A stretch of DNA of 64,000 bases from Burkholderiaceae bacterium (GTDB taxonomy: Bacteria; Pseudomonadota; Gammaproteobacteria; Burkholderiales; Burkholderiaceae_B): positions 248,001 through 312,000 of the forward strand of contig JAGOAJ010000001.1 of assembly GCA_017983955.1 (NCBI GenBank), in the 5' to 3' direction. Positions 36,501-53,171 of this stretch are shown here, one piece after another; within the stretch, counting starts at the first letter, position 1, and each line of letters starts with the position of its first letter. Below the pieces are notes generated by a model. That model saw nothing but the letters and a program-made list of their open reading frames with translations, had not been told where the DNA came from and did not search any database. The translations under genes were made by a program, and so were the position numbers.

Positions 36501-37321
36501 TAGCGACTCACTAGATCATGACGATTTACCTGTCTCGCCAGCTTAAGCATATAAACTAACGTTTCATGATCTTTCACCAACTCACCTAGACGCTGTTCAC
36601 CTTCTTCACAGGCACTAACAGCCCGATTTCCTGATTCAAGCACCTTTAGTGCGTTAATAAAATAATGCCGTTTGTTGTCCAATGTTTTTTCCATATTGGA
36701 CGCGGCAAAATAAGCTAGGGCAGCTTCGTCGTAATTCTCATTAGCGAAAGCAGTCGCCGCCAGTTTTTCATACCACTGTGTCGCATTGTCGCTATCTGCT
36801 ACTGCTAGTTTTTTATAAAAACTACTAGTAAGGTCATCATCACCCACCAGGCGTGCCTTTTCCGCCAACGAGCGCATTACAGAAACACTCCACTCGTACT
36901 GTGACGTTTTTTCCAGTGCCTTTAAAAATATCGCAATGCCGTCAATCCTACGAAGATCTCCCGACGGATATTGGTATGCCATTTGTTCGGTAGCGCCCAC
37001 TTCCAGCAGCAAACCTTGCTGAAGGATGGTTTTATTGCCCGTGTCCAAGTGCGCTAGCCTATCGGCAATCAAAAGAGCCGACTCCCATCGATGCAGTTTC
37101 ACATAGTGTGTACCAAGCAAGCTAAGGTACTCGGGTGAGTCTGGCTTAAGGCGTAACCAGGCTTCCAGATAGGCGGCAGACAACTCGGACGGTGGCTGCA
37201 GCGCAAGGCTTTGAGTTTGTTCCCGATCCCGTTGATAAGCGGTGGATAATGCCGCCATAACCCCAACCGCGATGAGAATGGAAAGCCATAACGGGCATAG
37301 TTGTTCTCGGAGCTTATTCAC
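33533..37321 (-). CDS. pelB: Second PelB: outer-membrane Pel export porin with shorter TPR region
   Basis: A 1262-residue paralogue of the pelB at 45323, starting at GTG with AAGGTGG upstream. It has an N-terminal membrane segment (about 11-28), a long TPR region, and a C-terminal beta-barrel of about 320 residues ending in YRMVF, the terminal Phe expected for an outer-membrane barrel. Compared with the other copy it lacks two in-frame blocks: residues about 281-653 and 804-877 of that copy. Its length is near that of the known Pseudomonas PelB (about 1190). The frame, membrane anchor and barrel are intact, so it is probably functional. It overlaps a pelA remnant by eight bases, as the true pelA and pelB do. 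Confidence 0.88.
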   Translation of the reverse strand: MNKLREQLCPLWLSILIAVGVMAALSTAYQRDREQTQSLALQPPSELSAAYLEAWLRLKPDSPEYLSLLGTHYVKLHRWESALLIADRLAHLDTGNKTILQQGLLLEVGATEQMAYQYPSGDLRRIDGIAIFLKALEKTSQYEWSVSVMRSLAEKARLVGDDDLTSSFYKKLAVADSDNATQWYEKLAATAFANENYDEAALAYFAASNMEKTLDNKRHYFINALKVLESGNRAVSACEEGEQRLGELVKDHETLVYMLKLARQVNRHDLVSRYARELVNLLQVSQISKGSAYPKLTWFTEKARQAGDLAQDLITYSDQTHRNAYYSDYSGAVGYVNFRPVGLAGMVQRVATNTTNTDDKVANVAAVENSDFDLAFQAFLEGKQLDEAEKLAKEALDRQFNPMVWTQRLAQVATWNNHPETALKYWLQYARLSGDDEAWAKVLELAPQLDNDQAFLAALIHAADRSPSNPSYVAKIASVKYKQGHLSDAIKTLREARNQIDDSPESAPYWRLYAELARHAQSNEDANFAHQHLLATGQSNDSDLYSITDFYQAYPIDAARMAELQFQQNDSQEAFRSALQYYVEARAWPRIRTLLNAMTPDQRTLFERSGRSLAVRAQYHLHMHNGADALADLRAAVGAPDVYDDIKVLYLWALVGYGTDGELNAALQKWRSTAKIKPSYWGAFAAGELRLGNAARAVVYLRQQRYQSAEDPLWLMVLASAEERAGNSDFAWGVRRQAWRLLQIKTASGQLDQTIPADGNVTANNTKASLDRTERVDLRVARVALSQIFTNGDISRSLLIDLLKQDSRNSEEYVVANSLLGDRAGLLKLDEVIGHESQSPYTRRDVISAATKEVALAWAISGEHYDLARAWLAREYLDDLLRPVNAEITLALIDKDKETLERLLDNRQRPISTGSRIAALMQTGRTSEAETVAYAAAEGAPDNSDTHQVMVDTLLRDRPGVGVSVMNATSDTLPYVESTLVGGFKLTSRLGLTVEAIQRNQRTDTDQLAWVPAHDRELNITLRDTTIDHDLSLTLGHRKAVKSFYTAKVRGKFNLIGPLTTSFTLGVNQLTDLTSHMRVGATKDTAQIGLAWTPESRWFALVTAEADRFHAQGRTYLGHGYQFTQELGYRIRNSYPDWNVRLIGAQGVFSRSNNTISSMEALLPLGVAPLASEFMPQNYNQFGAMVGFGTADANIYSRGWRPFISVGYVHDSNAGWGPRVNLGIGGSVLGGDYLRIFFLHESAGKGSGQRVNQIGLSYRMVF

Positions 37322-37483: not shown

Positions 37484-38503
37484 CTAGGGAATTCCAGTCT
37501 TCATGGCAAGCTGCCACCGCCACGCATCCTCGCACATGGTATTGATGTTCTTACTGGCTTGCCACCCAAGCTTTTGCTTGGCCAACCTAGTATCCGCCCA
37601 GCATGCGGCGATATCTCCAGGACGACGGGCAACCACTTTATAATCAACGATTTTTTGACTGGCTTGCTCGAAGGCCCGCACCATATCCAGTACTGAATAC
37701 CCCTGCCCCGTGCCCAGGTTTACGGTAAGCAGATCCTGTTGCGTCTGTTCACAATAGCGTAGAGCTGCAACATGCCCTTGTGCCAGATCCATCACGTGGA
37801 TATAGTCTCGCACCCCAGTACCATCCGCTGTGTCGTAATCATCACCGAATATTTTCAATGTGGCCTGCTGGCCAATCGCGACTTGTGCCACGTAGGGCAT
37901 AAGATTGTTAGGCACCCCTTCTGGGGACTCGCCGATTAACGCACTGGGATGGGCACCCACCGGATTAAAATAACGTAGACGCGCAATACGCCAACCAGTT
38001 TCTGCCTTATACAGATTTTCCAGAATGTCTTCTACTACCAGTTTGGAGTGACCATAGGGATTGGTCGCCGAGCGTGGGTGCAGTTCAGTGAGTGGCAGTT
38101 CCTGTGGGTCTCCATACACCGTAGCTGATGATGAAAAAACAAAGGTATAGACCTTGGCCTGCTGCATGGCCTTCAGTAATTGAACACTGCCATTGACGTT
38201 ATTATCATAATAGTCCAACGGCTTCTGGGTGGATTCCCCCACTGCCTTCAGGCCTGCAAAATGCAGCACCGCTGTAATTTTATGCGCCTGGAAAGTCGCT
38301 TTCAGCGCACCAGCGTCACGGATATCTGCCTGAATAAATCCAGGCGCAACGCCGGTGATCTGTTCAATACGCTGCAGCACGGTAAATCTGCTATTACATA
38401 GATTATCCAGAATCAATACCCTGTAACCCGCCTGCTGCAGGGCAACGGTAGTATGACTGCCGATAAAACCGGCACCTCCGGTAACCAATATCGCTGAGGT
38501 CAT
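37484..38503 (-). CDS. galE: UDP-glucose/UDP-N-acetylglucosamine 4-epimerase
   Basis: A 339-residue SDR-type epimerase with GGAGFIGSH (9-17), the Ser-rich SSSATVYG (124-131) and catalytic Tyr150/Lys154 in YGHSK. At the position of E. coli Tyr299 it has Cys301 (GDIAACWAD). In E. coli GalE the Tyr-to-Cys change, and in human GALE the natural Cys, allow UDP-N-acetylated sugars, so this enzyme probably makes UDP-GalNAc, the precursor of Pel, like PelX of other Pel loci (inference). AGGA precedes the start. It follows the stand-alone hydrolase gene by 16 bases; the pelA remnant starts right after its stop. The C-terminus is complete. Confidence 0.92.
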   Translation of the reverse strand: MTSAILVTGGAGFIGSHTTVALQQAGYRVLILDNLCNSRFTVLQRIEQITGVAPGFIQADIRDAGALKATFQAHKITAVLHFAGLKAVGESTQKPLDYYDNNVNGSVQLLKAMQQAKVYTFVFSSSATVYGDPQELPLTELHPRSATNPYGHSKLVVEDILENLYKAETGWRIARLRYFNPVGAHPSALIGESPEGVPNNLMPYVAQVAIGQQATLKIFGDDYDTADGTGVRDYIHVMDLAQGHVAALRYCEQTQQDLLTVNLGTGQGYSVLDMVRAFEQASQKIVDYKVVARRPGDIAACWADTRLAKQKLGWQASKNINTMCEDAWRWQLAMKTGIP

Positions 38504-38519
38504 AAACCAATCCTAATTA

Positions 38520-39401
38520 TTAATCACTTGCTGCTTCATTTATTCTCTGTAAATGGCCATCCCCTACATACGGTACTAGGCCCAATGCCCTGATACGCTG
38601 TATGGTATCTAAGGAGCATTTAGTATCCGTTGGTGGACAGTAGTCAATAGCAATAACTGGCAAATTATATTTTTCCTTTACTATTTCCACCTGATCCATT
38701 AGCCATGCTCGATCTTTACTGGGTACATCAATGTATTTACCAGTCAATTCACTCCAGCCTTTAAAAAGCGACTCGAATGCGACCCCAGACACTTGATTGT
38801 GCACTGCGGGCAATAGCTCGAAGCCTCGATTTAATATTATGGTAGCGTCTGGAAAATGACGATTTATTGCTCGTATTACATTGATCAGTCCTTGCCGATT
38901 TTTTTGTTGTTTTTTTTCACTTTTAAAAACCAATTGATATGAATCCAGCGTATCAAGAAAAAATCCGCTATAGCCTTGTTTCCATAAGGGTGAGATTACA
39001 TGCTTTACGAAAAATGATGGCCAACCGGGAGCTGACTGATCAATAATATCCGAGCGCCATTCTACATTTTCCCCAACAATCCACGACTTCGGAATAGATG
39101 AATAATAAGCTCGTGAACTCTCAACCTCGCCAACACTAACATAAGCGATCCAACGCGTTTTATAGTCTGCCGGACCAGGCGGGACAAATCCGCTAGCCGG
39201 CTCTAAAACCGCGAAATCGAACTTGCTTAGTTGTTCCAGCTCTGGAATTTCACCATAGTAAAAAACAATGCTGTTTGGAGTTACTATTGTAATGGCAGAA
39301 ACTCCTCCAAAATAAAATGTCGTCATTAATCCGAACAGCATACCTAATCGATAGCGTAATCCTAGGCTTTGGAAAAAACTCAATATCAAGGACAGTGTCA
39401 T
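38520..39401 (-). CDS. Stand-alone PelA-type glycoside hydrolase (GH114/GH166-like endo-alpha-1,4-galactosaminidase)
   Basis: A 293-residue protein: a membrane segment at about 18-36, then a TIM-barrel hydrolase domain related to the PelA N-terminal domain (FYYGEI, ISPLWKQGYSGFF, LPVIAIDYC all recur there). It keeps the likely acidic residues Asp150 and Asp153 (LDTLDSY), Glu210 (FESLF) and the loop YVSVGEVES (87-95). PelA in this window lacks most of these. Known enzymes of this type cleave alpha-1,4-linked galactosamine polymers. It lies between pelG and galE with gaps of four and 16 bases, inside the pel operon, and should act in the periplasm from a membrane anchor (inference). Confidence 0.85.
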   Translation of the reverse strand: MTLSLILSFFQSLGLRYRLGMLFGLMTTFYFGGVSAITIVTPNSIVFYYGEIPELEQLSKFDFAVLEPASGFVPPGPADYKTRWIAYVSVGEVESSRAYYSSIPKSWIVGENVEWRSDIIDQSAPGWPSFFVKHVISPLWKQGYSGFFLDTLDSYQLVFKSEKKQQKNRQGLINVIRAINRHFPDATIILNRGFELLPAVHNQVSGVAFESLFKGWSELTGKYIDVPSKDRAWLMDQVEIVKEKYNLPVIAIDYCPPTDTKCSLDTIQRIRALGLVPYVGDGHLQRINEAASD

Positions 39402-39405
39402 ATAT

Positions 39406-40782
39406 TCAGGCGCTCTTTTGCAGCATATAAGTTTCGTACTCTAGTGTCTCGAAGCGATGATCTAGTAAATAAGTGCCTAACAATACAACTAACAGTAGTG
39501 CCCCTGCGAATCCATATCCATAGGTATCTGGCCCCAGATATAAGGTAATCCAGGTAAACGCACCGTTAAGAACAACAAAAACAGTAGTTAAAATCAAGAC
39601 AATGCGACGGCTATCCAGATAGAAAAAGAAATTAAGAATGCCTAGAAATAGCACTTGTAGGCTAGCCGCAATAACATCAATCTCTAGTAAAGGCAGGTAA
39701 AGCGTTGAAATGCCGATAAGACGCAAAAGCTTGTCGCCAAATGCGAAAATCAACAAAATCACAACGGCCTGAATCTTTAGGACCTCATACAGGCCTGTCC
39801 TGGCGCTACGCACCATCCTATCTCGGATCTCGCGTATATCATCAAGCGTTCCGCCTGTTCGGATAGCGCTGTAAAAGCCAGCATAGTGTTTGATAAAGTC
39901 AGTTTCAAGACGTAATAGAAAAACAGCCAGTCCAGGAATAATGCATAAATATGCAATAAACACTGGAATATCATAAATAACGGAAGCACGTAATGGACCG
40001 ATAACAGTCTGCCCTGTGGCCGAAAACCAAAACATGAATTTATCCAACCACACACCTAAATTGAATAACAGACCTACAAAAATCAGGCTGGGGTATGCGA
40101 AACGTTGGTCGAACACTTCCCAGGAAATATAATTCTCCGAGTAGTAGTGATGATGAATCAAATTAACCAGAATTGCTAATAACACCAAATGGCCAAAAAC
40201 GAACCCTCCTAACAAGCCTTCCAAGCCAAAACTATTCAATAAAACGGCAAAAAAAACGGTTACTGAATAACCAACAAAAAAGGCGATAAGGATAATTTTA
40301 TATTGTTTGATGCTTGCAAGAAAAATGACACCGATCCAGACATTACTAATAATGACGAAGCCCATCATCATTAACATCCGGTATGGAATAGATTCGTGCT
40401 TGAACAAGGTGATGGCCAGGATAAGCCCTAACAAGCCAGTGGCAACAGTGGTTACTACCGTTACTGCGTTGTAGCTGGGCATCACGCGTTTAGGCCGACG
40501 CTGGAACAACCTGTCAGAGATAAATCGGGTAAACGATAGCTGAACCGCACCCGTAACAATCAAACTAGCCGCAATCAAGTAGGTTACCGACACCTGGAAC
40601 TGCACAATACGGATCGGCGGATCCACCATCGGCAGGCTTATTAGACCTATTAGTAAAATTCCAACGATGGACAGAATCAGTGGGCCGGCGCTGTTGATCC
40701 CCGCATAAAAATATGCCCACAGGGTGCTGCTAAAACTATCGCGTCGCAGTATCTTGCGTAACTCAAAACCCATGCCCGCCAT
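39406..40782 (-). CDS. pelG: PelG, Wzx-like inner-membrane protein of Pel export
   Basis: A 458-residue membrane protein with about 12 hydrophobic segments, starting MAGMGFELRKILRRDSFSS, the conserved PelG N-terminus. AGGAGG stands six bases before the start, and the stop of pelF is next to it. PelG is required for polymerisation and transport of Pel across the inner membrane with PelD, PelE and PelF. No anomaly was seen. Confidence 0.95.
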   Translation of the reverse strand: MAGMGFELRKILRRDSFSSTLWAYFYAGINSAGPLILSIVGILLIGLISLPMVDPPIRIVQFQVSVTYLIAASLIVTGAVQLSFTRFISDRLFQRRPKRVMPSYNAVTVVTTVATGLLGLILAITLFKHESIPYRMLMMMGFVIISNVWIGVIFLASIKQYKIILIAFFVGYSVTVFFAVLLNSFGLEGLLGGFVFGHLVLLAILVNLIHHHYYSENYISWEVFDQRFAYPSLIFVGLLFNLGVWLDKFMFWFSATGQTVIGPLRASVIYDIPVFIAYLCIIPGLAVFLLRLETDFIKHYAGFYSAIRTGGTLDDIREIRDRMVRSARTGLYEVLKIQAVVILLIFAFGDKLLRLIGISTLYLPLLEIDVIAASLQVLFLGILNFFFYLDSRRIVLILTTVFVVLNGAFTWITLYLGPDTYGYGFAGALLLVVLLGTYLLDHRFETLEYETYMLQKSA

Positions 40783-40783
40783 A

Positions 40784-42334
40784 CTAGCCTCCTTTCACGA
40801 TAGCATCTGCTCGGCTGATCAGCAGCTTTTGGTAGAGGTCGCGATACTTGTCCTCCATCAGGGAATCTGTGTAGTAACGTTCAACCCTTGCGATACCAGC
40901 CTGCTGAGCGGCCAGCCACTTTACTGGCTGCTCAAGCAACTCGAGCATTGCCTGAGCAAGTAATTCAGGGTTGGCAATTTGAACTACCGATCCAGCATAT
41001 CCCAAGGCGCGATCAGCATCGTCCTGGCCTTCAACTAGTTGGCGGCATGACCCCACATCAGTGGTCACCACCGGGACGCCTGCGGCAAACGCCTCTAGTA
41101 CAACCAACGGCAAAGCCTCACTGATCGAGCTAAGCGCAACCAAACCGACCTGAGGCAGCAGCTCATCAATCTTTCTAAATCCGAGGAACCTCAGGTTATC
41201 CTCTACGCCCAAGCTGTTGACTAGTTCTCTGCACTCACGAACATATTCTGGATCCTCAGTTTCGGGGCCAACTATCCAGCCTTGCAGCGCTGGCAATTTG
41301 CGGCTGGCAACAAAGATAGCTCGAATGAACGTTTTAATATCCTTGATGGGAACGACCCGTCCAATAAGAGCAACCACCAGCGGTGGCTCGACTGGCCGCA
41401 GATCCCTTAGCGGAATAAAACGACTGATATTAATACCATTAGGAATATTGCGGGTCTTAGCTTCGACAGCGCCATCGCGAATCTGACGTAAGCGATTGCC
41501 TTCATATAAGGACACAATATCATCGGCTGCTTCGTAGCAAATCCGACCCATAGTCTCGAAAAAACGCACCCATAAGTCCTGAAAATAACCAACCTGTGAA
41601 ATATCTTTCTCAAACATCCCACGATTATCTCGAATCCATTGACTCTGTAGAAGATCGATCTTGCGCTCTTTTGTGTAGATTCCGTGTTCAGAGACCAACA
41701 ACGGCTGATCTGTACGAAAACGCAGTAAGGCCCCAAGAAATCCGGCATATCCAGTAGAAATACTGTGATACAGCTTGACTGGTATCATATTTTCAGCAAT
41801 TTTCGCTAGCTGCCATAATGGCTTATGCATGATACGTATTGTCCAAAAATAATCTGTGAACGACGGATCAGTGCAGTACATTTCATAATGCTCAGTAATA
41901 AAATCCCATGAGCACTTGCTATGCAAGAACTGCTGTTCACTGATGTCGCCACCCTCGGCCAACATAGGTATCACTTCACGCATTAATCTTCCAATTGCAT
42001 CCGGGTTTTTATTTTTACGCAATTCGTCATGCATTTTCGCAACACGCTCGAAAGCCTGCTTATTGCCGTCACTGCTTTGTACCCGAATCGGTAATGTAGA
42101 TTCGTGAATGAAATGCTCTTCAAAATGAATCACATTGTCAGGTAACTCGAAACGTGGTTTCCCATAATCCTGCCGCCGACTGCCTATAAATACCACCGCG
42201 AAAGTAGTTTCGGGAAATGCCAGTATCATTTGGTTGACCCATGCCGACACCCCGCCCGAGACATACGGAAATGTCCCCTCAAGCAACAAAGCGATGTCAG
42301 CCGACGGAGCCTGACGATTCAAGTTGATATTCAT
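40784..42334 (-). CDS. pelF: PelF, cytoplasmic Pel glycosyltransferase (GT4)
   Basis: A 516-residue retaining glycosyltransferase. The N-terminus ADIALLLEGTFPYVSGGVSAWVNQ is the PelF hallmark; the C-terminal half has GRVVPIKDIKTFIRA and SEALPLVVLEAFAAGVPVV, with the E-x7-E pair of family GT4. The ATG at 42334 overlaps the pelE stop (ATGA); a TTG 12 bases upstream is less likely. It polymerises Pel from UDP-sugar, which the GalE at 37484 probably supplies. Confidence 0.95.
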   Translation of the reverse strand: MNINLNRQAPSADIALLLEGTFPYVSGGVSAWVNQMILAFPETTFAVVFIGSRRQDYGKPRFELPDNVIHFEEHFIHESTLPIRVQSSDGNKQAFERVAKMHDELRKNKNPDAIGRLMREVIPMLAEGGDISEQQFLHSKCSWDFITEHYEMYCTDPSFTDYFWTIRIMHKPLWQLAKIAENMIPVKLYHSISTGYAGFLGALLRFRTDQPLLVSEHGIYTKERKIDLLQSQWIRDNRGMFEKDISQVGYFQDLWVRFFETMGRICYEAADDIVSLYEGNRLRQIRDGAVEAKTRNIPNGINISRFIPLRDLRPVEPPLVVALIGRVVPIKDIKTFIRAIFVASRKLPALQGWIVGPETEDPEYVRECRELVNSLGVEDNLRFLGFRKIDELLPQVGLVALSSISEALPLVVLEAFAAGVPVVTTDVGSCRQLVEGQDDADRALGYAGSVVQIANPELLAQAMLELLEQPVKWLAAQQAGIARVERYYTDSLMEDKYRDLYQKLLISRADAIVKGG

Positions 42335-43338
42335 TTGGCAGACCAATAGCGCACACTAGGCTGGAGTAAGGGGGACGTAGTGCTGTTGCTTAGGGGAATC
42401 AGCATTTTTCCTATTCGGCCAAAGTCACGCTGCAGAAAAGCCACTTCAGCCAGCCATGGCAGCAATCGGTCAGCAGGAAAACTATGATATTGAGCATTGC
42501 GGAAGAATTCTTCTGCCTGGTCCGGTTTATTTCTTAGAAGAGCACAGCGCCCAAGCAAATACCACATAGCCGCATTTTTTGTACGATGTTCCAAAGCTTC
42601 ATGGGCGTAATGTTCAACACGCTCCAGGGTATAGCTATGAACCTCGCCCTCGACCAGATGCTGATAGATCAGTTCCCAGTACAACTCAGCCAAACGACTG
42701 TTGACCTCATTTTTCTCGGCTGACGTCACCGCATCTGTCAATTTCTCCTGGGCCAGAAAAATTCTTTTCATGATGGCCTTTTCAGCGCTGTCGACTACCC
42801 CGTAAGCCAACAAACGAATTTCCTCATAGGGATCAGTTAACAGTTTGCGTAGCATCCCGTCCGTAATATGCGTAGGCAACGACTGCACAGCAACCATGGC
42901 AGCCATCCTATCTTCTGTAGAACCATCGGAATTTGCCAACCGAGCACGCAGACGCGCCCCACCGCCATGGGTTACGCGCGACACTAAGTAGGTAACAAAC
43001 TTGGGATTTTGAACCAAGGTCGAATCAGCCAGCTTATTGACTGAAGGAAACGCCATCGCCACGAGTATGATGCTTAAAAAAAGTATCTGTCCGGCAACCG
43101 GCAAAAACAAACACACCGCAAAAACATGAATAAAGATGCCGCTGTGCGGTCCTCGGTAACGCCGTAACAAGACACTCGAAGTAAACAACGCCATCATTAG
43201 TGCAGCCAATACCTGCCAAGCAAAAAATACAAGAATGGGGTCGATAGCACCTGTAGGCTGAAAGAATACGCGGATGGCAAGCCCCTGAGTTGCCAAGGCC
43301 AGTAAACCAACCGTAAACGAATACAGTAATCTAATCAT
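42331..43338 (-). CDS. pelE: PelE, inner-membrane Pel synthesis protein
   Basis: A 335-residue protein with three hydrophobic segments at the N-terminus and a TPR-like helical C-terminal half (HALEHRTKNAAMWYLLGRCALLRNKPDQAEEFF). The start could be the ATG at 43338 or a GTG at 43347 that overlaps the pelD stop by eight bases; neither has a strong ribosome site. It is placed between pelD and pelF as in all pel operons. PelE links PelD to the glycosyltransferase in the inner-membrane complex. Confidence 0.92.
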   Translation of the reverse strand: MIRLLYSFTVGLLALATQGLAIRVFFQPTGAIDPILVFFAWQVLAALMMALFTSSVLLRRYRGPHSGIFIHVFAVCLFLPVAGQILFLSIILVAMAFPSVNKLADSTLVQNPKFVTYLVSRVTHGGGARLRARLANSDGSTEDRMAAMVAVQSLPTHITDGMLRKLLTDPYEEIRLLAYGVVDSAEKAIMKRIFLAQEKLTDAVTSAEKNEVNSRLAELYWELIYQHLVEGEVHSYTLERVEHYAHEALEHRTKNAAMWYLLGRCALLRNKPDQAEEFFRNAQYHSFPADRLLPWLAEVAFLQRDFGRIGKMLIPLSNSTTSPLLQPSVRYWSAK

Positions 43339-43339
43339 G

Positions 43340-44707
43340 CTAGCCACACCGTTCTAGTAACGTTTTAAGCCCAAGGCCAGGGCTATCGGCATTAATGCTA
43401 CCGCTATGCACCGCAACACGTGCTTGCACCAGACCCGTGTCAAACTGCGACTTAAGGCTATTTTCGAGTCGCAGCAAATACCCATCAATACCAGACTCAT
43501 TGGTAAGAGGCATAAGTATCACAACTATTTGTGTCTCATCGGTGCTGAATACCCACCGCAAGTCCAAAGTGCGGTGCTGACGCACAACTTGATCGAATAA
43601 TGAGTCTGCGATGGTTCTGCGCGGAAAAACTAGGGCAACCAACGACGATTGCACGCCACTTACCTGTTGCATATGCGCCAAACGCCCCACCTCCAGCGCA
43701 AAGTCATAGGGACACTGAGGCACGATTTGTTGAACAGGCTTGACGATCTCCTGCTGCTCGATACCATCGGCATAATAATTAAGTAGCACAAGCAATAACT
43801 GCAGATTATCGAAACTTAGGGACAAGAACGGCATATGGCGCACCACTAACACCCCTTTCAAATGCCCTGACGAGCTTGTGATAGGAACACACGCCAAATA
43901 TGCGCTTTCTTCCGCGTCTATATTGCGTAAATGTGCCAGAGCCTTTTTTTCGATACATTCCTTCAATAAGGGATCATTTGTATTAAGCTCGAAGTGTTCT
44001 CCAACCCAGGCAATTCCCCGGGGGGAAAATTGATTATCTGTAAGCGAGAAAATCGATGCAATATCAATTTGGCAACTTAGCGCTGCAAACTCCAGCACCA
44101 CTTGTGCATTAGGTAAGGATTCATTTTTTAAGTTCGGTATCGACAAGTTACGTAAATAGCCAACCGCATCTCTCAAGGTAGAAGGTTTCGATAGCAGATC
44201 CTTTTCAAGGCGTTCGTGGGAAACACGCAATAAGTAGTGATTATTGGTGATGGATACCAACCGATCATTTAGATAATCATTAACGCTATGCAAACGATTA
44301 GCGCGGTTAGTCCAGACATCGCTGAAATGTCCTACTATGATCACCAGCGTTAAGCCACCCACAAAAAATATGGTGGGAAATACCGTAGCGCCGCCTTGGC
44401 TATAAAACACCAGCCAGGCAGCTGAAATACAAAAGCCCGCCAGTACGCCCAATATTGCACCATAACGGAGTGCAAAAACAGTAGGAACCAACCAAATCCA
44501 TGGGAAGCCAAGGCCCAACAGCAGTGGATCACCCGGGCGTATTAAATAGCAAAGTCCGGTGACGATCGCCATACCGATAATGACCTCGAGGACCGACGCC
44601 GGCCAACTAGCCGCTGGAGCAAACAAACGGCCATACCGTCCGACGTTGTCCTTAAAGTCAGATTTACGTTCTTTTGACGACTGCTGCTGTAAGCTAACCG
44701 ATTGCAC
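43340..44707 (-). CDS. pelD: PelD, c-di-GMP receptor of the Pel synthase
   Basis: A 455-residue inner-membrane protein: four membrane segments (about 40-125), a coiled-coil-like stretch, a GAF domain and a C-terminal degenerate GGDEF domain. The c-di-GMP-binding RxxD is kept as R379-T-L-D382, and Arg413 fits the third binding Arg by spacing (Pseudomonas PelD uses R367, D370 and R402). Pel production should therefore be switched on by c-di-GMP (inference from the conserved site). It starts with GTG directly after an AGGAGG that overlaps the pelC stop. Confidence 0.95.
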   Translation of the reverse strand: MQSVSLQQQSSKERKSDFKDNVGRYGRLFAPAASWPASVLEVIIGMAIVTGLCYLIRPGDPLLLGLGFPWIWLVPTVFALRYGAILGVLAGFCISAAWLVFYSQGGATVFPTIFFVGGLTLVIIVGHFSDVWTNRANRLHSVNDYLNDRLVSITNNHYLLRVSHERLEKDLLSKPSTLRDAVGYLRNLSIPNLKNESLPNAQVVLEFAALSCQIDIASIFSLTDNQFSPRGIAWVGEHFELNTNDPLLKECIEKKALAHLRNIDAEESAYLACVPITSSSGHLKGVLVVRHMPFLSLSFDNLQLLLVLLNYYADGIEQQEIVKPVQQIVPQCPYDFALEVGRLAHMQQVSGVQSSLVALVFPRRTIADSLFDQVVRQHRTLDLRWVFSTDETQIVVILMPLTNESGIDGYLLRLENSLKSQFDTGLVQARVAVHSGSINADSPGLGLKTLLERCG

Positions 44708-44716
44708 GGCCCCCTC

Positions 44717-45256
44717 CTATTGTGGAGCTAACGGAGATAACAATTGCCGAATAAGCGTTTGCCCCACCCCTGCCGCACTGGATCGGCTCCAACCGCTACG
44801 ACTGCCAGTAGCACTCCATACAACCGCACCGGAATTCAAGTCAATCAAATTAAAGGTCAGGCCAACAACTGGCTCACCATCTATCCCAACCTTGTAACGC
44901 CATTCCTGGACGGATCCGGTCAGAGCATAATTTGCGCCAGTCGTACGAGCCCAATCCAAGGTCTGAGTTCTGTTCTGATCAGAGGTATTGCCAATTAGTG
45001 CATTTGAGCTTTGATCTTGCTGGTAGCTATGCAATCCGGTAAACCCTTTTTGATGAAGAATGCTTTCAGCGATGCTCTGCGCGCGCAGGCCTGCATCTGG
45101 CGTTTCAGTGTAGTTAGCCATCGGCAGGACAGCCAGGCCATTCATATTGGCCAATGCCGGCGAATTACTGGCGTCTATCGTCGAGCATCCCGCCAAAACC
45201 GACAGCAATGCTGCGCTGCTCCATTTCAATGATTTACTGATATCAAGTGTTTTCAT
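44717..45256 (-). CDS. pelC: PelC, outer-membrane lipoprotein of Pel export
   Basis: A 179-residue lipoprotein with a lipobox LAGC (Cys24) and a mature domain containing GLAVLPMANYTETPDAGLRAQSI and the ALTGSVQEW segment. The ATG at 45256 has GGAG eight bases upstream; a longer frame to 45286 is not supported. PelC forms a ring at the periplasmic mouth of PelB. The spacer between pelB and this gene holds the left end of the duplicated segment. Confidence 0.95.
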   Translation of the reverse strand: MKTLDISKSLKWSSAALLSVLAGCSTIDASNSPALANMNGLAVLPMANYTETPDAGLRAQSIAESILHQKGFTGLHSYQQDQSSNALIGNTSDQNRTQTLDWARTTGANYALTGSVQEWRYKVGIDGEPVVGLTFNLIDLNSGAVVWSATGSRSGWSRSSAAGVGQTLIRQLLSPLAPQ

Positions 45257-45322
45257 GTTTTTGCTCCGATCTTCATTAAATGACAATCAATGTGGGCGCC
45301 GTGTCTTGTGCGCTGCCACGGC

Positions 45323-48300
45323 TTAAAACACCATTCGATACGACAAACCTATTTGATTTACACGCTGACTGGTCCCTTTTCCAGCAGACTCATGCACAAA
45401 GAAAACTCGTAAATGGTCACTCCCAAACACTGACCCTCCTATGCCCAGATTCACTCTAGGCCCCCAACCAGCATTGCTGTCATGCACATATCCAACATCC
45501 ATGAAAGGACGCCAGCCACGTGAATATGTATCAGCTTCGGTTGACCCCAAACCTATCATCACGCCATATTGATGATAATTTTGCTGCATGAATTCGGATG
45601 CAAAGGGAGTGACATCGGATGGCAGCAGGACTCCGAGTGAAGCGATGGTGTTGTCACTTGCTGAGTACACTCCTTGAGCACTAACCAAACGAACGCTCCA
45701 ATCAGGATAAGAACCGCGAATACGGTAACCAAACTGTTGCGTAAACTCATAGCCACGCCCTATATAGGTGCGATCCTGCTGTGCATGAAAACGATTGGCT
45801 TCGGCTGTAACTTGTCCAAACCAGCGCGACTCGGGGTTCCACGCCAAGCCTATCTGGGCAGTATCTTTGGTAGCGCCCACTTGCATATGAGACGACAAAT
45901 CGGTGAACTGATTGACGCCTAACGTGACGCTGGCCGTCAATGGCCCGGCGCGATTGAATTCACCATGTATTTTTGCGGTATAGAACGACTTCATCGCCTT
46001 GCGATACCCTACCGTTAACGACATGTCATGGTCCATCGTCGTGTCGCGCAAAGTAATGTTCAGTTCCCTATCATGGGCCGGTACCCACGCAAGCTCATCA
46101 ACATCAGAGGTACGCTGATTACGCTGCTTAGCCACAACAGCAAGACCCAGGCGACTGCTCAGCTTAAGGCCCCCGACCACCGTGGTTTCGACGTAGCGCA
46201 GCGAGTCAGAGACTGAATTGACCACATCCACGCCCACTGTGGGTCTATCACGCAGTACTGTTTCAACCATGGTTTGATGGATATCACTGTTGTCGGGCGC
46301 GCCTTCGGCGGCGGCATACGCCACGGTTTCGGCTTCGCTAGTACGACCAGCCTGTGTCAATGCAGCGATACGGCTACCTATAGAAATAGGCCTCTGACGG
46401 TTATCAAGTAACCGTCCTAGCGTTTCTTTGTCGTTGTCCGCCAAGGCCAGTGTGATCTCAGCATCTGCTGGCCGCAACAAACGGTTCACGTACTCCCTGG
46501 CCAACCAGGCGCGAGCCAAGTCATTATGCTCACCGCTAATCGCCCACGACAACACGACTTCTTTGGTCGCCGCACTGATCACATCACGGCGCCCATCAAG
46601 CGACTTTGCGTCATGCGCCATCACGTCGTCGAGTTTAGGCAAACCAGCCCTGTCTCCCAGTAAGGAGTTGGCTACAGCGAACTCTTCAGGGCCACGCCCG
46701 TCCTGTTTCAAGAGATCAATCAACAGACTTCGCGAAATATCGCCATTCGTGAATATCTGGCTTAATGTGACGCGCGCCCTGAGCAGGTCAAGGCGCTCTG
46801 CAGAGTCCAGACGATTACCCACTTTATTAGTTTTCGAGTTGTCATTCGCCACAATGACCTCATCAAGTTGCCTGGAGGCCGTTTTTGTTTGCAGAATATG
46901 CCACGCCTGCCGGCGAATTCCCCACGCCAGCTCAATACGGCCGGCCCCTTCCTCTGCATCAGCCAGTGCCATCAGCCACAAAGGATCATCAGCTGACTGA
47001 AATCGCTGTTGGCGTAGGTATATCACTGCCCTCGCCGCATTACCCAGTCGCAGTTCACCTGCGGCAAAAGCCCCCCAGTAGGATGGGTTGGTTTTTGCCG
47101 CAGAGCGCCATTTGTTCAAGGCTGCGTTCAGCTCGGCATCAGTTCCGAATTCAACTAAGGTCCATATATATAGACCCTTGATATCGTCGTCCGCGTCAGG
47201 TGCTCGTACAGCGCGTCGTAAGTCATCAAGCGCAGCATCCCAGCGCTGTGAGTGAAGATAGTATTGAGCACGAACCGCCAGCAACACACCTGAACGCTCG
47301 AACAACACAAGCTGCTCGGGTGTCAGGGCATTTAACAGTGTGCGAATACGTGGCCAGGCGCGTGCATCCACGTAATATTGCAACGACGCCCGTAAGGCCG
47401 CCTGGGACTCGTTCTGCTGGAATTGTGATTCTGCCATACGTGCCGCATCGATCGGATAGGCTCGATAAAAATCGGTAATAGAGTTCAGATCAGCATCATT
47501 CGACTGTCCGGTTGCCAGCAAATGTTCATAGGCAAAATTCGCGTCTTCATTGCTTTGCGCCCGGCCCGCAAGTTCAGCATACAGACGCCAATAAGGAGCA
47601 GACTCGGGACTATCACCTATCTGATGACGAACATCACGCAGTATTGTCAAGGCCTCAGACAAGTGTCCCTGCTTATATTCAAAGCTGGCAAAATGTGCTG
47701 CATAGGTGGGGTTGGCAGGATAAGCCGTCGACAAACTACGATAGGCATCCAGCGCGGCCTTATTGTTTCCCGATCGCTCTGCTAGCGCCGCGTAGCGCTC
47801 TAGCAGAGGCTGGTGATACACCCCCTTGGCCCGACTTTTAAGATAGGTCATGCCAGCTTGCGGTTGGCCTAACCGTTCATAGGTAGCGACGATCTGGTCG
47901 CGCAAGGCAAAATCATGCGGTGCCCTGTCAGAAGCGTGGATAAGGGCCGCAAGATAAGCCTGATCATTATTCAGCTGGGGCGCAAGCTCAAGCACATTGG
48001 CCCAAGCCTCATCACTGCCCGATATCCTTGCATACTGTAACCAGTACTTCAGCGCCGTTTCCGGGTGGTTATTCCATGTCGCTACCTGGGCTAACCGTTG
48101 CGTCCACACCTTCGGGTCAAGCTGACGATCAAGTGCTTCTTTGGCAAGCTTTTCAGCTTCGTTCAGTTGTTTGCTTTCCAGAAAGGCCTGGAAGGCAAGA
48201 TCAAAATCATTACTTTCCAGCAGGGTATTAGCTGACTGGTCGTCAGTGCTTGTTGTGTTGGTCGCGACCTGTTGAAGCATGCCCACCAGACCGGCAGGTC

Positions 48301-50332
48301 TGAGGTTCACATAGCCTACAGCGCCACTGTAATCCGAGTAATAGGCGTTACGGTGGCTTTGATCAGAATACGTGATTAAGTCTCGTGCATAACGCGACAT
48401 TAAATCGCGTCGGTTTGCCTGCCTAGCCAGATTGATCAGATAACGCAAAGTCTTGGGGTCTTGAGCAAGATTTCCCGCCCGCTTTTCTGCTTCCTGGCAC
48501 GCTTGAACAAGCTGGCCATTCGCAACAAATGCTTTTAACGCCGCCAGAAAATAAAATCGCTTTTCCTCAAGAACAGTAGCTGCATCCTGAGCCGCAAAAT
48601 AAGCCGTGCTTGCTTCTTCATAGGCTTGCTGGCCTAGCGCCATATTACCGATCTGCTCTTGCCACTTTGATGCATTACTTGCATCGACAACCGCCAACTT
48701 CTGGTAGTAATGCCCTACAAGATCATTGGCACCAGTTTCGCGTGCTTTTTGCGCAAGCCAGGTCATTTCCGGAATACCCCATTCGTACTGGCTAGTTTGC
48801 TCTAGTACCTTGATGAAGCGCGCCAACCCTTCGACACGCTGAGGATCATCGGGCTGGTATTTATAAGCCAGTTGCTCTGTGATAGTAGCCTCCAGCAAGA
48901 GCATGTCCTGACGCTCTTTGGTATCGCCTTGGTCTTTTATCGTTCTGGCAACTCGCAGCGCCGACTCCCAATGGCCTAGATTCTTATATTGCTCAAGTAG
49001 TACATACTGGCTAGCTAAGGGGTTTGTTGACGCCTGCTTGGGTTCTGGCTGAGTATGTGCCCATGCCGCCAGATAAGCCGCGTCATCCTCAAACTGGGGT
49101 GCTAGCGTTAATACATGCTTCCAAGCCTCTTCGTTACCCGACTCCTGGGCAACCAACAACCAATATTTGAATGCCTTTTCTGGATGACTATTCCACTGAG
49201 CCACTTCAGCCAGTCGACGCCCCCATACCAATGGATCAAGATGAGCATCCAGCGCTTTCTGCGCGATCGTCTCGGCGTCGTCGAGCTCATTGCTTTCAAT
49301 AAACGCCTTAAATATCAGCTCATATTCAGCCGATTTCTTTGCTTCTCGCCCATTTTCAACCGGAATTGCTCTGGTGCTGACCAGGTAACTACGAGCACCT
49401 GTAATATATGGCCAGGATTGTGCTTTCTGGGCACTGAACCCGGTCAACACTACAACCTTGGAATTTTCGCTACCCTGACTTAACTGAGCGCGTTTCACCA
49501 ATTCATGAGCATAGCGACTCACCAAATCGTTGCGGTTCACTTGCCGCGCCAACTTAAGCATATAAGCCAAGGTTTCACGATCGTTCACCAACTCACCTAG
49601 GCGTTGATCACCTTCTTCACAGGCGCGAGCAGCCTGATCGCCTGACTCAAGCGCCTTTAGCGCGCTAATAAAATACAACCGTTTGTCATCGACTGTTTTT
49701 GCTATATTGGACGCGGCAAAATAAGCTTGGGCAGCGTCGTAGTAATGCTGATTAGCCAAAGCAATCGCCGCCAGTTTTTTATGCCACTGTGTCGCATTGT
49801 CGCTATCCGCTATTGCTAGTTTTTTGTAATAGCTGCTTGTAAGGGCATCCTCACCCACTAGGCGTGCCTTTTCCGCCAATGAACGCATCACGGAAACATC
49901 CCATTCGTACTGCGACGTTTTTTCCAATATATTTAAGAAATTCGCAATTTCTGCAGGCCGACGCAGATCATCGGGCGAATATTGATACGCCATTTGTTCA
50001 GTGGCGGATAGTTCCAGCAGCAAACCTTGCTGCCGGATCGTTTGATCGTCCTTCCCTAACTGCCCAAGCCTATCGGCAACCAAAAGTGCAGACTCCCAAC
50101 GATGCAACTTTACATATTGTGTTCCAAGCAAATTAAGGTATTCGGGAGAGTCTGGTTTAAGGCGTAGCCAGGCCTCCAGATAGGCAGCAGACAGCTCGGA
50201 CGGTGGTTGTAGTACTAGGCTTTGAGTTTGCTCGCCATCCCGTTGATAGGACGTAACTAAAGCCGCCACCACACCAAACCCGATAAGAATGGAAAGCCAC
50301 AAAGGGCATAATTGCTCGCGGTGCTTATTCAC
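45323..50332 (-). CDS. pelB: PelB, outer-membrane Pel export porin with an enlarged TPR scaffold
   Basis: A 1669-residue protein, long for PelB (about 1190 in Pseudomonas). It starts at GTG and overlaps pelA by eight bases. Order: N-terminal membrane segment (11-28), TPR scaffold to about residue 1340, and a C-terminal beta-barrel ending in YRMVF. Residues about 60-435 recur, diverged, at about 435-805, so the scaffold carries an internal tandem duplication of some 370 residues. PelB exports the polymer; its TPRs bind PelA and guide Pel. Extra TPRs could change the reach in the periplasm or the number of PelA molecules bound (inference). Confidence 0.93.
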   Translation of the reverse strand: MNKHREQLCPLWLSILIGFGVVAALVTSYQRDGEQTQSLVLQPPSELSAAYLEAWLRLKPDSPEYLNLLGTQYVKLHRWESALLVADRLGQLGKDDQTIRQQGLLLELSATEQMAYQYSPDDLRRPAEIANFLNILEKTSQYEWDVSVMRSLAEKARLVGEDALTSSYYKKLAIADSDNATQWHKKLAAIALANQHYYDAAQAYFAASNIAKTVDDKRLYFISALKALESGDQAARACEEGDQRLGELVNDRETLAYMLKLARQVNRNDLVSRYAHELVKRAQLSQGSENSKVVVLTGFSAQKAQSWPYITGARSYLVSTRAIPVENGREAKKSAEYELIFKAFIESNELDDAETIAQKALDAHLDPLVWGRRLAEVAQWNSHPEKAFKYWLLVAQESGNEEAWKHVLTLAPQFEDDAAYLAAWAHTQPEPKQASTNPLASQYVLLEQYKNLGHWESALRVARTIKDQGDTKERQDMLLLEATITEQLAYKYQPDDPQRVEGLARFIKVLEQTSQYEWGIPEMTWLAQKARETGANDLVGHYYQKLAVVDASNASKWQEQIGNMALGQQAYEEASTAYFAAQDAATVLEEKRFYFLAALKAFVANGQLVQACQEAEKRAGNLAQDPKTLRYLINLARQANRRDLMSRYARDLITYSDQSHRNAYYSDYSGAVGYVNLRPAGLVGMLQQVATNTTSTDDQSANTLLESNDFDLAFQAFLESKQLNEAEKLAKEALDRQLDPKVWTQRLAQVATWNNHPETALKYWLQYARISGSDEAWANVLELAPQLNNDQAYLAALIHASDRAPHDFALRDQIVATYERLGQPQAGMTYLKSRAKGVYHQPLLERYAALAERSGNNKAALDAYRSLSTAYPANPTYAAHFASFEYKQGHLSEALTILRDVRHQIGDSPESAPYWRLYAELAGRAQSNEDANFAYEHLLATGQSNDADLNSITDFYRAYPIDAARMAESQFQQNESQAALRASLQYYVDARAWPRIRTLLNALTPEQLVLFERSGVLLAVRAQYYLHSQRWDAALDDLRRAVRAPDADDDIKGLYIWTLVEFGTDAELNAALNKWRSAAKTNPSYWGAFAAGELRLGNAARAVIYLRQQRFQSADDPLWLMALADAEEGAGRIELAWGIRRQAWHILQTKTASRQLDEVIVANDNSKTNKVGNRLDSAERLDLLRARVTLSQIFTNGDISRSLLIDLLKQDGRGPEEFAVANSLLGDRAGLPKLDDVMAHDAKSLDGRRDVISAATKEVVLSWAISGEHNDLARAWLAREYVNRLLRPADAEITLALADNDKETLGRLLDNRQRPISIGSRIAALTQAGRTSEAETVAYAAAEGAPDNSDIHQTMVETVLRDRPTVGVDVVNSVSDSLRYVETTVVGGLKLSSRLGLAVVAKQRNQRTSDVDELAWVPAHDRELNITLRDTTMDHDMSLTVGYRKAMKSFYTAKIHGEFNRAGPLTASVTLGVNQFTDLSSHMQVGATKDTAQIGLAWNPESRWFGQVTAEANRFHAQQDRTYIGRGYEFTQQFGYRIRGSYPDWSVRLVSAQGVYSASDNTIASLGVLLPSDVTPFASEFMQQNYHQYGVMIGLGSTEADTYSRGWRPFMDVGYVHDSNAGWGPRVNLGIGGSVFGSDHLRVFFVHESAGKGTSQRVNQIGLSYRMVF
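47920..50155 (-). repeat. Internal tandem duplication in pelB (two modules of about 370 codons)
   Basis: Module 1 (residues about 60-435) and module 2 (about 435-805) align in order: HRWESALL with GHWESALR, EKTSQYEW with EQTSQYEW, LARQVNRNDLVSRYA with LARQANRRDLMSRYA, and LDPLVWGRRLAEVAQWNSHPE with the LDPKVWTQRLAQVATWNNHPE region. The offset is 370-376 residues throughout. The two modules have diverged considerably. The second pelB at 33533 has only one module. Confidence 0.85.
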
Positions 50333-53171
50333 AGTTCACCTTGATAGAGTGATAGGAAACAGATTGAGTCGCTTGACCGCTGACATTCAACGTCATGGCT
50401 CCTGTCTTGCCTACCGTACCGGCAGATTTGCCATTAATGCTGGCACGACAGTTCATGGCATCGGCAAGCTGAACAAATGGCTTGTAATAACCACCTAACT
50501 CGAACTCCATTCCTGTACCAGTACGCTGAAAATTACGTACAAAACCAGAAGCCTGAGCGATATATGGCGTAACCCCAACAGTCTGTGGCGTCATGATGAA
50601 CGAGGCTTGATTACCCCCCATGTGAATATACAAACCGCCAGGACCGGGCAAATAGCCTGACACACCAGATGCCGTGGACAAATCAGGTATCCCTGCCCCT
50701 GGCCAACGCAATTGGCGAAGGTTCGCACCAGAACGCACCATCCAACGATTTCCGTCTCGAGCGACTGCAACATGACGCCAATCAAGAGCACGGTTTATAT
50801 ATTCAGTGGTGTAGATTGGGAAAACCGGCTGTTTCAGGGCTGCATTGAACACCGCATGCAGTGCCTTTAAAGAGGCAGCCTTGGTGCCCGAGTAAAAATG
50901 ATAGTAAATATTGACCGGTTTAAAGCGTATAGGCGTATCGGTTAGCGCGAATGTCTCGAGTACACTTTGAAAGCCATAAAATGGTCCCATCCAATCATTG
51001 GTATAAACGTTTTCGTTCATTACGCCGGCATACACCTGGTACTCGTCAGGACGATTCCCTTTGGCCACACCATATGGACTGATATTGGTCCAGCTATTCC
51101 TGGCTTTTGTAATGGTGGTATTGCCACCGTTAATATTGAGCGCACCGACTTTTCCCACATGCCTTAATGCTATTTTTGGTGCTGCGGCATCACCTGACCA
51201 CAAAACTGCCAAAACGGACTTGCCTGTGGGGGCCAAGCGTTGAGTTATATAGTCGATAGACCCCTGTATCTCTCGGTTTATGTTGAATTTGTAATTGGGA
51301 ATATCCAAGGAGAACGCTCCAGTCCCAGCCCATTCAGGGTTAAATTGATCCCCTATTTTTTCACCCGTTATCTCGTTGATTTGGGACAAGTAAAACGGGT
51401 GAGAATAAGTATGGCTTCCAATCTCGACATTCGGCAGAGAAAATATTTTTCGCGCAATCGGCTCAAGTCGGGGCGCAAGCTCAGAATGCAATCCACCTGG
51501 CCCGATCTCACCTTCGATCACGGATACCAGCATAGGGATCTGATACTTCGTAAAGACTTCGTTATACAGAATTTGCCCACTATATTGCTGTGTAGCACCA
51601 GAAAACTCCCCACGAGACGCAAAACCATCGCCATCCACATGGGTAAACATCAAACGGCGGCCATTCTCGGAGGTTAAGTCCGGTACCGGCATATCGGGCA
51701 GTGCTAAGGCTTTCCTAAGAAATTTGATGGGGTGAATTGCCCAGCGATTTTGCTCGATGGCATCCAAATACAAGACCGTGTTACCAGCTAACACATAGCC
51801 CCCCCAGGGGGTCAGTGCCGCCGCATCATATAGATAGTCGCCAGCTTTCAAACGCAGCAAGGGTTGTCCATTCGAGTCAGCTCGTACTGCCTGAGCCTCG
51901 CGTATGTCGGGTGCAGGCATGATCTCGAATCCCATCATGGGATCCTTGCTGACAATCTGAAGGGGGCTATTCAACGGTGGTTTACCAGTAACCACTTCGA
52001 GGTTAAGAGCGCGGGCTACCTGGGTATCTAGAGGAAAACCGAACTGATTAAAAAAGGCGACCCGCATGCCTTGGCTTATTTGCCCCAATACCCATTGCCG
52101 CCACGCCCTCGAATTATTTACCGTACGATCGATAGCAACCACTATTCCAGCATAACGGTCATTGCTGATACCGCTAGGCAACGCTTGATTAATATCAGCG
52201 TACTGAATGTCGTAGCCCAAGTAATTCAAAGGCATCGCTATACTGCGAGCCCCCATGGTCTCGTCCAGCGGCTGGTCACGATCTAGTGTCTGTACCAACA
52301 GAATTTTGCGAGGCATCACTTCAATGCGACCAACCCCGACAGCCCCCAGACCTGGCGTTGTCACAAAAGGAGTGACACCATCTGCCACAAGCTTAGCTGC
52401 CACTTCACGACGGCACGCCTGATTACCAACGGTGCAGTAGTCTATGGCAACCACCGGCAACGCTGTCTGTGTTTGAATCTGCTTGATTTGCTGTAGGGTA
52501 CTAGTCCGCACTGCATCCGGTACGACTGCCAGAAAACTGCCATAACCACGACTCTGTTGATATAAGGAGTCGACCACCACCGCATATAAATTCTGGGCAT
52601 TCGCTTGTGCAACTGCCAAATGGTTGCGCAGCATTAGTTGCGCTTGAGGGTATTGACTATGAATTGCCTTGATTGCTTGATCAAGCCTTTCATCAAAGGG
52701 CGTAACTTTTTCGCTGACAGCCGTTCCGTCGTCAAGCAAGAACCCCTGATAGCCCTTTTCCCATAAAGGACTTATTTTCTGGCTTATAAATGTATTGATA
52801 TCTTCAGATTTACTGGTCAGTCCTTGAAGATCGACACGCGCAAACCAGGCGGTATGCGGCGCAAGATCCGTCTGGGGCAAAGCAGCCACAGCCGGATCGA
52901 TTACCACTGCGTCAAACGCCTGTAATTCGTCGACTGGCAAATCGCCGCGATAATAAAATGCCACATTTGGTGAGGCTGTTGGGCTTGCACTAGTCATAGC
53001 CGCACGAGCCTGGCCATTGCCCTGCCATGAAATCAACGCCAGCATTGCAACAGCAAACAAGCGAAGCACCCATAAGAGATGTATGGGGTTCTGGCTATGA
53101 GCTAACGACGGGCATACTAGGCACGCCGAACCCAATTCGCTTTTTTTATCGGGGCGTTGATACCACATCAT
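50325..53171 (-). CDS. pelA: PelA, periplasmic Pel deacetylase with a degenerate hydrolase domain
   Basis: A 948-residue protein. A membrane/signal segment lies at about 31-50; the hydrolase-like domain spans 68-285; the deacetylase (CE4-like) has Asp513/Asp515 in THVDGDG and His587/His591 in GSHTYSHP; a C-terminal beta-rich domain ends in HSIKVNCE. Compared with the stand-alone hydrolase at 38520, the hydrolase domain has Asp201 for Glu210, Thr150 for Asp153 and lacks the VGEVES loop. In Pseudomonas PelA a Glu at this position (E218) is needed for hydrolase activity, so hydrolysis is probably weak or lost while deacetylation is intact (inference). The ATG at 53171 is followed by a second ATG; ribosome site weak. 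Confidence 0.93.
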   Translation of the reverse strand: MMWYQRPDKKSELGSACLVCPSLAHSQNPIHLLWVLRLFAVAMLALISWQGNGQARAAMTSASPTASPNVAFYYRGDLPVDELQAFDAVVIDPAVAALPQTDLAPHTAWFARVDLQGLTSKSEDINTFISQKISPLWEKGYQGFLLDDGTAVSEKVTPFDERLDQAIKAIHSQYPQAQLMLRNHLAVAQANAQNLYAVVVDSLYQQSRGYGSFLAVVPDAVRTSTLQQIKQIQTQTALPVVAIDYCTVGNQACRREVAAKLVADGVTPFVTTPGLGAVGVGRIEVMPRKILLVQTLDRDQPLDETMGARSIAMPLNYLGYDIQYADINQALPSGISNDRYAGIVVAIDRTVNNSRAWRQWVLGQISQGMRVAFFNQFGFPLDTQVARALNLEVVTGKPPLNSPLQIVSKDPMMGFEIMPAPDIREAQAVRADSNGQPLLRLKAGDYLYDAAALTPWGGYVLAGNTVLYLDAIEQNRWAIHPIKFLRKALALPDMPVPDLTSENGRRLMFTHVDGDGFASRGEFSGATQQYSGQILYNEVFTKYQIPMLVSVIEGEIGPGGLHSELAPRLEPIARKIFSLPNVEIGSHTYSHPFYLSQINEITGEKIGDQFNPEWAGTGAFSLDIPNYKFNINREIQGSIDYITQRLAPTGKSVLAVLWSGDAAAPKIALRHVGKVGALNINGGNTTITKARNSWTNISPYGVAKGNRPDEYQVYAGVMNENVYTNDWMGPFYGFQSVLETFALTDTPIRFKPVNIYYHFYSGTKAASLKALHAVFNAALKQPVFPIYTTEYINRALDWRHVAVARDGNRWMVRSGANLRQLRWPGAGIPDLSTASGVSGYLPGPGGLYIHMGGNQASFIMTPQTVGVTPYIAQASGFVRNFQRTGTGMEFELGGYYKPFVQLADAMNCRASINGKSAGTVGKTGAMTLNVSGQATQSVSYHSIKVNCE

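Follow-up and report, generated by a model that had tools for sequence, protein, structure and literature searches.

We found that, in one clade of PelA proteins, the hydrolase domain fused to the deacetylase has a broken active site, and that a separate gene of the same genomes, usually located behind pelG, encodes a GH166 protein in which the site is intact. The preliminary description of the window (the whole stretch of 64,000 nucleotides analysed here) had suggested that pelA and this stand-alone gene divide the two activities of PelA, deacetylation and hydrolysis, between them. The comparison with relatives supports this split at the level of sequence patterns (48/48, 52/52 and 49/49, detailed below) and shows that it is not peculiar to the window genome but common to one PelA clade. 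Its observed basis consists of residues, a deletion, co-occurrence, a one-clade history, selection estimates and predicted folds; from these we infer that the PelA hydrolase would be dead, the stand-alone enzyme active and exported, and hydrolysis uncoupled from PelB. We consider it highly probable that, in the ancestor of the clade, a copy of the GH166 domain was established as a gene of its own in the pel operon, the PelA-fused domain lost its active site, and the free enzyme does the cutting.

The operon lies on the minus strand of the window, in the order pelA-B-C-D-E-F-G, the stand-alone gene and a galE-like gene. The pelA gene (50325..53171) encodes a protein of 948 residues (P0002), with a degraded hydrolase domain and a CE21 deacetylase. 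Behind it, the reading frame at 45323..50332 (1669 residues) is taken to be the export gene pelB, from its place, which homologues share in related loci, and from family features. A gene for a pelC-like lipoprotein follows (44717..45286; Pfam LpoB and synteny), then pelD (43340..44707; Pfam PelD_GGDEF), a frame at 42331..43347 with TPR matches under the cut-off that is, by synteny and general features, presumably pelE, the glycosyltransferase gene pelF (40784..42346; NCBIfam NF038011 PelF) and pelG (39406..40782; Pfam PF16933, 496 bits). The gene at 37484..38503, 16 bp behind the stand-alone gene, is presumably a galE-like epimerase gene, judging by its translation, and homologues of it are close to the stand-alone gene in several relatives. 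Downstream of it, also on the minus strand, is a second pelB-like gene (33533-37321; 1262 residues) whose product begins with nearly the same residues as PelB, and which looks like a recent duplication of pelB. Upstream of pelA, on the same strand, lies a GH114 gene (53520-54416; E 5e-62 against Aspergillus Ega3), possibly a third galactosaminidase of the locus; such a gene also lies upstream of pelA in locus L017 and, in L020/L112 (one genome), after the stand-alone gene.

The acids of hydrolysis are reported as D160 and E218 in P. aeruginosa PelA (PaPelA) and as D149 and E207 in PtPelA (PMC12022489), and PMC12054363 prints Glu223 for PaPelA. As D160 and E218 are 58 residues apart, D160 is the first Asp of the motif LDTLDS. 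According to the same report, alanine mutants of PtPelA D149 and E207 gave no biofilm disruption, the D160A E218A variant serves as hydrolase-inactive PaPelA, and full-length PelA homologues conserve the hydrolase active-site residues with minor differences only (PMC12022489).

The stand-alone gene (38520..39401, minus strand; P0001, 293 residues) starts 4 bp past the end of pelG and runs in the same direction. Residues 41-284 of its product matched the solved Pseudomonas PelA hydrolase (5tcb) with an E value of 4e-44 in phmmer, Pfam PF03537 matched with 73.6 bits, and identity to the PaPelA hydrolase over aligned columns was 34.9%. By alignment, the catalytic pair is D150 and E210, corresponding to PaPelA D160 and E218; indeed, the E218A chain 5tsy departs from 5tcb in the E210 column. 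Glu210, Asp153 and the VGEVES stretch are all present, as the preliminary description had stated. The AF2 model (pLDDT 86.3) found its best PDB match in 5tcb (TM 0.86 by target, rmsd 2.4) and is a TIM barrel with a β3 insertion, onto which the segment equivalent to PaPelA 97-140, 42 residues long, was mapped by sequence position. A membrane anchor had also been proposed for this protein. The hydrophobic helix is there, at residues 14-30, where the pLDDT of the model is <50, and in relatives L020 and L022 it ends in AWA; it might just as well be a Sec signal peptide that is cleaved off, so that the helix stands but the anchor is unproven. The stand-alone protein appears to be an intact-looking Pel cutter, with predicted hydrolase activity.

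The full-length PelA of the window matched PtPelA (9cgy) with an E value of 8e-127. Its N-terminal hydrolase-like domain (residues 66-292; 52296..52976, minus strand), however, matched the isolated hydrolase 5tcb with only 8e-9, against 4e-44 for the stand-alone protein, fell under the Pfam cut-off (22.2 versus 27 bits) and was 25.5% identical to the PaPelA hydrolase over aligned columns. Both phmmer and AF2 place it in GH166 with a barrel fold: the model (pLDDT 86.8) matched 9cgy with TM 0.81 and rmsd 3.4, and 5tcb with TM 0.74 and rmsd 4.8, by query, and the other 19 rows of the alignment behind it, all intact fused or stand-alone relatives and none another degraded domain, may pull it towards the intact fold. 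Structure prediction had been suggested as a check of the split, and at the level of the whole fold the models of both domains indeed match PelA structures in the PDB (5tcb, 9cgy).

The site itself differs. At and around the positions of the catalytic Asp and Glu, the PelA domain of the window has D147, which is the surviving Asp160 of PaPelA, D148, T150 and D201; numbering and alignment agree that D201 stands opposite Glu210 of the stand-alone protein, in the column of PaPelA E218, as first described. The substitution of Thr150 for Asp153 is likewise present, but concerns a neighbouring position, that of PaPelA D163, outside the catalytic pair. The missing VGEVES loop turned out to be part of a longer loss of about 32 residues; by our own mapping from sequence, the deleted segment would be the β3 insertion over the active site named in PMC12054363. 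The NRGF motif is gone as well, the place of NRGFE reading RNHLA. A swap of Glu to Asp with Asp147 present need not end all activity and, because this change alone could leave some, the wider pattern across relatives is a stronger argument than Asp201.

To place the window among relatives, the PelG profile PF16933 was sought in four draws with overlapping genomes, and was found in 12 of 268 genomes of the window's own family (11 above the cut-off), 43 of 399 in the order draw, 24 of 369 in the class draw and 34 of 398 in the phylum draw (30 above the cut-off). Ninety-four pel loci of up to 20 kb each were fetched, several of which were cut short where a contig ended and yielded no PelA. In the window and in 15 of the 94 loci, pelG is followed by a stand-alone gene belonging to the same clade, ten of these 15 loci being from the window's family and five from one other family of the order; the nearest relative of the window genome, G001, is of the same genus. 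We also scanned named genomes with the stand-alone alignment and took the best 80 of 423 relatives. Among these 80, the stand-alone gene lies behind pelG in Eoetvoesiella, Candidimonas, Paracandidimonas, Castellaniella, Pandoraea, Chromobacterium haemolyticum and many Trinickia and Paraburkholderia (by NCBI taxonomy, Eoetvoesiella belongs to Burkholderiales and Chromobacterium to Neisseriales). Also among these 80, nothing but intact fused domains was hit in the loci of Cupriavidus, Ralstonia and Caballeronia, nor in some of those of Paraburkholderia, Trinickia and Burkholderia. A whole-genome search covered 49 genomes from the 80 named loci and gave stretches from 36 of them. In most loci showing both genes, the stand-alone gene either comes straight after pelG or lies at most about 1.3 kb behind it. 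Pararobbsia alpina (L197, also L154) has it upstream of pelA, and the E218 position of its PelA is G.

We scored 110 of 139 fused domains for stand-alone context. All 48 PelA paired with a stand-alone gene (14 from the survey including the window, 34 from loci fetched later) have D160/E218 broken and none has the pair kept; among the 62 unpaired, 61 (47 from survey loci, 14 from named loci) keep it and one does not. The pelA and stand-alone genes share a contig in 43 of the 48 and are on different contigs in five (L196, L200, L205, L210, L227). The 29 unscored domains comprise 26 from named loci, two that are cut (L078, L192) and one duplicate (L154 = L197); D160 and E218 are present in 27 of them and broken in L192 and L154, both from genomes with a stand-alone gene. 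On the other side of the pairing, D160, D163, N199, R200 and E218 are present in 52/52 stand-alone proteins; when duplicates are included, 79 of 80 aligned stand-alone domains have D160, D163 and E218, the odd one being L108, a distant weak match. The median length of the segment equivalent to PaPelA 97-140 is 42 residues for stand-alone as well as intact domains, against 10 (6-17) for degraded PelA, where it is shortened in 49/49. The deacetylase half, in contrast, retains its base Asp, metal Asp and two metal His in 49/49 degraded PelA and its acid His in 48 (one gap); the His preceding the base, which has been proposed to activate it, is retained in 41 and replaced by Gln in 8, and differs in 8 of 61 intact PelA too. 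Since the deacetylase still has its base and metal residues, the decay affects the hydrolase half alone.

Both domains might instead be active and specialised, with PelA Asp147/Asp201 acting on another substrate or acetylation state and the stand-alone enzyme acting on Pel. This would fit the purifying selection on the PelA domain (median dN/dS 0.187 in 16 pairs) and the D160/D218 state in 10/10 readable PelA of the window's own family. Across the clade, however, the states in the 48 are D160/D218 (23), D160/P218 (7), D160/G218 (6), E160/D218 (4), D160/Q218 (2), A160/E218 (2), T160/E218 (2), D160/A218 (1) and D160/H218 (1), so that D, P, G, A, H, Q and E all occur at position 218, and D, E, A and T at position 160. 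Together with the lost 97-140 segment (49/49, 6-17 residues left) and the absence of NRGF from the degraded domains inspected, this leaves no common catalytic site in the degraded clade, and we regard specialisation as very unlikely. The variation at position 218 also weakens the idea of Glu-to-Asp as a conserved functional swap.

Some genomes allow the two arrangements to be seen side by side: G1403 and G1408 each have one operon with intact PelA (L126, L143) and one with degraded PelA and a stand-alone gene (L212, L211), the residues having been read in both operons; in G1381 and G1400, the intact second-operon copy was judged by profile match alone. The sole unpaired broken case is in Ralstonia sp. 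A12 (L198, 14886, minus strand), an orphan pelA with no adjacent pelB-G; its genome has, in addition, an intact fused PelA, and no stand-alone gene of this kind. A genome-wide check for the stand-alone gene in the 46 survey genomes with intact fused PelA found no other match in 44. The exceptions were G363, with weak partial matches (best E 3e-10), and G1008, with a strong one (305 residues, E 5e-63): a GH166 gene of stand-alone size (G1008:C1:2508172-2508921) that lies 0.37 Mb away from a pel operon whose fused PelA is intact, so that the presence of such a gene does not force decay. Weak matches of stand-alone size (E 1e-7 to 1e-13), which occurred in some of the 49 genomes searched whole, paired (G1373, G1378, G1390 and G1400, among others) and unpaired (G1411, G1414), are probably other GH114-type proteins. 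We rejected L058 (G533) as a case of the same kind, as it falls outside the stand-alone clade.

Candidimonas sp. SYP-B2681 (L022/G029; L113/G1368) has pelB-G and the stand-alone gene, but a pelA deacetylase did not turn up anywhere in its genome. In L045, pelA is read as two adjoining frames, one for the hydrolase and one for the deacetylase. Burkholderia sp. lig30 (L189/L226) has a rearranged pel locus with a frame of 484 residues containing a GH166 domain next to pelB; a search of this genome with P0002 did not find the deacetylase part.

To follow the history of the loss, we built a tree of the deacetylase part, with the trait's own columns excluded. All 48 paired PelA form one clade (SH-aLRT 100) inside Burkholderiaceae-type PelA and, since they provide one independent contrast, the association weighs as a single evolutionary event. 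The loss of the hydrolase site is thus one old event, retained thereafter without exception in the scored set. In the hydrolase-domain tree, the stand-alone genes share a group (100/97) with the fused domains of Paraburkholderia, Trinickia, Burkholderia and Caballeronia. They are not one clade there, as three fused Caballeronia-type domains fall among them, but the AU test did not reject their monophyly (p 0.442). The position of the degraded domains is unsure owing to long branches. An in-place duplication that would make stand-alone and degraded domains sisters is not favoured, given this grouping and the AU p of 0.064 when the two were constrained together.

The divergence of the degraded domains was about 1.4-1.5 times that of their own deacetylase at deacetylase distances >0.2, and 2.0-2.5 times below; the ratio was 1.0-1.4 at >0.2 and 1.8-2.1 below for the stand-alone genes, and 0.7-0.9 at >0.2 and 0.93 at 0.1-0.2 for the intact fused domains, whose one closest pair gave 2.1. 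Median dN/dS was 0.187 (0.10-0.38) for the degraded domain and 0.091 for its deacetylase in the same 16 close pairs, 0.129 for the stand-alone gene (16 pairs) and 0.101 for the intact hydrolase (14 pairs). Selection on the degraded PelA domain is, therefore, relaxed yet still purifying, which points to a retained structural or binding role. On account of its dN/dS and the open pelA frame, we rejected a decayed pseudogene.

The decay of the PelA domain could also be unrelated to the stand-alone gene, the operons simply losing hydrolysis. There is only one independent origin of the association, and the orphan degraded pelA of Ralstonia sp. A12 exists without a stand-alone gene of this kind. Against this, the catalytic residues are kept in 52/52 stand-alone proteins under a median dN/dS of 0.129 (16 pairs), and the scored set contains no pel operon with degraded PelA whose genome lacks the stand-alone gene. 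We give this explanation hardly any weight.

For the split, we propose the following course. In the ancestor of this betaproteobacterial PelA clade, a second copy of the hydrolase domain would have settled as a gene of its own towards the end of the pel operon, in most cases after pelG, having arisen either in place or from another operon. The deacetylase-fused domain would have lost one acid of the catalytic pair, together with NRGF and the stretch of about 32 residues that covers the site. In the resulting system, PelDEFG would make and move the polymer, PelA, carrying a pseudo-hydrolase domain, would deacetylate it and work with PelB, and the exported stand-alone GH166 enzyme, as the operon's Pel endo-alpha-1,4-N-acetylgalactosaminidase, would cut it, cutting being no longer physically tied to deacetylation in the PelA-PelB export complex. 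Since the PelA hydrolase of P. aeruginosa is reported to make secreted Pel (PMC9894940), that step would here fall to the stand-alone enzyme; in the E218A variant of PaPelA, a fall in secreted Pel and a rise in adherent biomass were reported (PMC9894940). A point against the explanation is the GH114 gene upstream of pelA in the window, which could also cut such polymers.

The stand-alone protein might, alternatively, be mainly a dispersal or self-clearing enzyme that acts on the finished extracellular matrix, rather than PelA's former biosynthetic cutter. In B. cereus, PelA_H is reported to limit biofilm, and the purified enzyme to disrupt formed biofilms (PMC7112168); Candidimonas sp. SYP-B2681 retains the gene with no pelA deacetylase found. 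However, the gene sits 4 bp behind pelG in the window and at or shortly after the end of pelG in most loci that show both, and it accompanies the loss of the PelA site, and we think dispersal as its main role rather unlikely. This reading is compatible with the split and differs from it only in the enzyme's place of action.

The arrangement resembles known systems in part. Like P. aeruginosa, the window has the order pelA-pelG, a full-length PelA and the deacetylase base and metal residues; unlike P. aeruginosa, where PelA does both reactions, it combines a degraded hydrolase site with a separate GH166 gene. A two-gene solution is already known from B. cereus, where hydrolase (PelA_H, BCE_5582) and deacetylase (PelA_DA) are encoded separately, galE flanks the operon, and PelA_H was reported active with Glu213 required (PMC7112168). 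The window shares with it the separate PelA_H gene, but not a PelA without any hydrolase domain, as its own retains the degraded one at residues 66-292; also, the B. cereus hydrolase gene is divergently transcribed (PMC7112168), whereas that of the window is co-directional behind pelG. In 10 of the 94 loci (L075, L086, L095, L096, L097, L099, L103, L106, L108 and L109), 8 of them outside the window's class, a hydrolase gene lies directly upstream of a deacetylase-only pelA; these loci, of the same phylum, likewise use two genes, but their PelA has no leftover domain and their hydrolases form a distant GH166 group. A looser parallel is PgaB/IcaB of PNAG systems, in which some deacetylases have a hydrolase domain and others do not (PMC7112194), with another polymer and other enzyme families. 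Searches of open-licence papers brought up no report of a Gram-negative PelA with a degraded hydrolase domain and a stand-alone hydrolase, and passages of PMC13254593 and PMC7112194 make no mention of such a pair.

From conservation, it was argued that both PelA activities could be essential in pel species (PMC12022489). The clade described here, found in Chromobacterium haemolyticum and in members of Alcaligenaceae, Pandoraea, Paraburkholderia and Trinickia, has a PelA barrel with no site and a separate cutter. Why Pel systems keep a hydrolase thereby becomes testable, as deletion of the cutter would leave PelA untouched, and the degraded barrel allows binding to be studied without cutting. 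With somewhat less than even confidence, we suggest that PelA in this clade is a pseudoenzyme fusion, in which the dead barrel would be selected as a Pel-binding or structural module feeding the deacetylase and PelB, and the amount, place and timing of the free cutter could be set separately. If this is true, the clade would be a natural experiment in which a Gram-negative Pel system has hydrolysis separated from both deacetylation and export.
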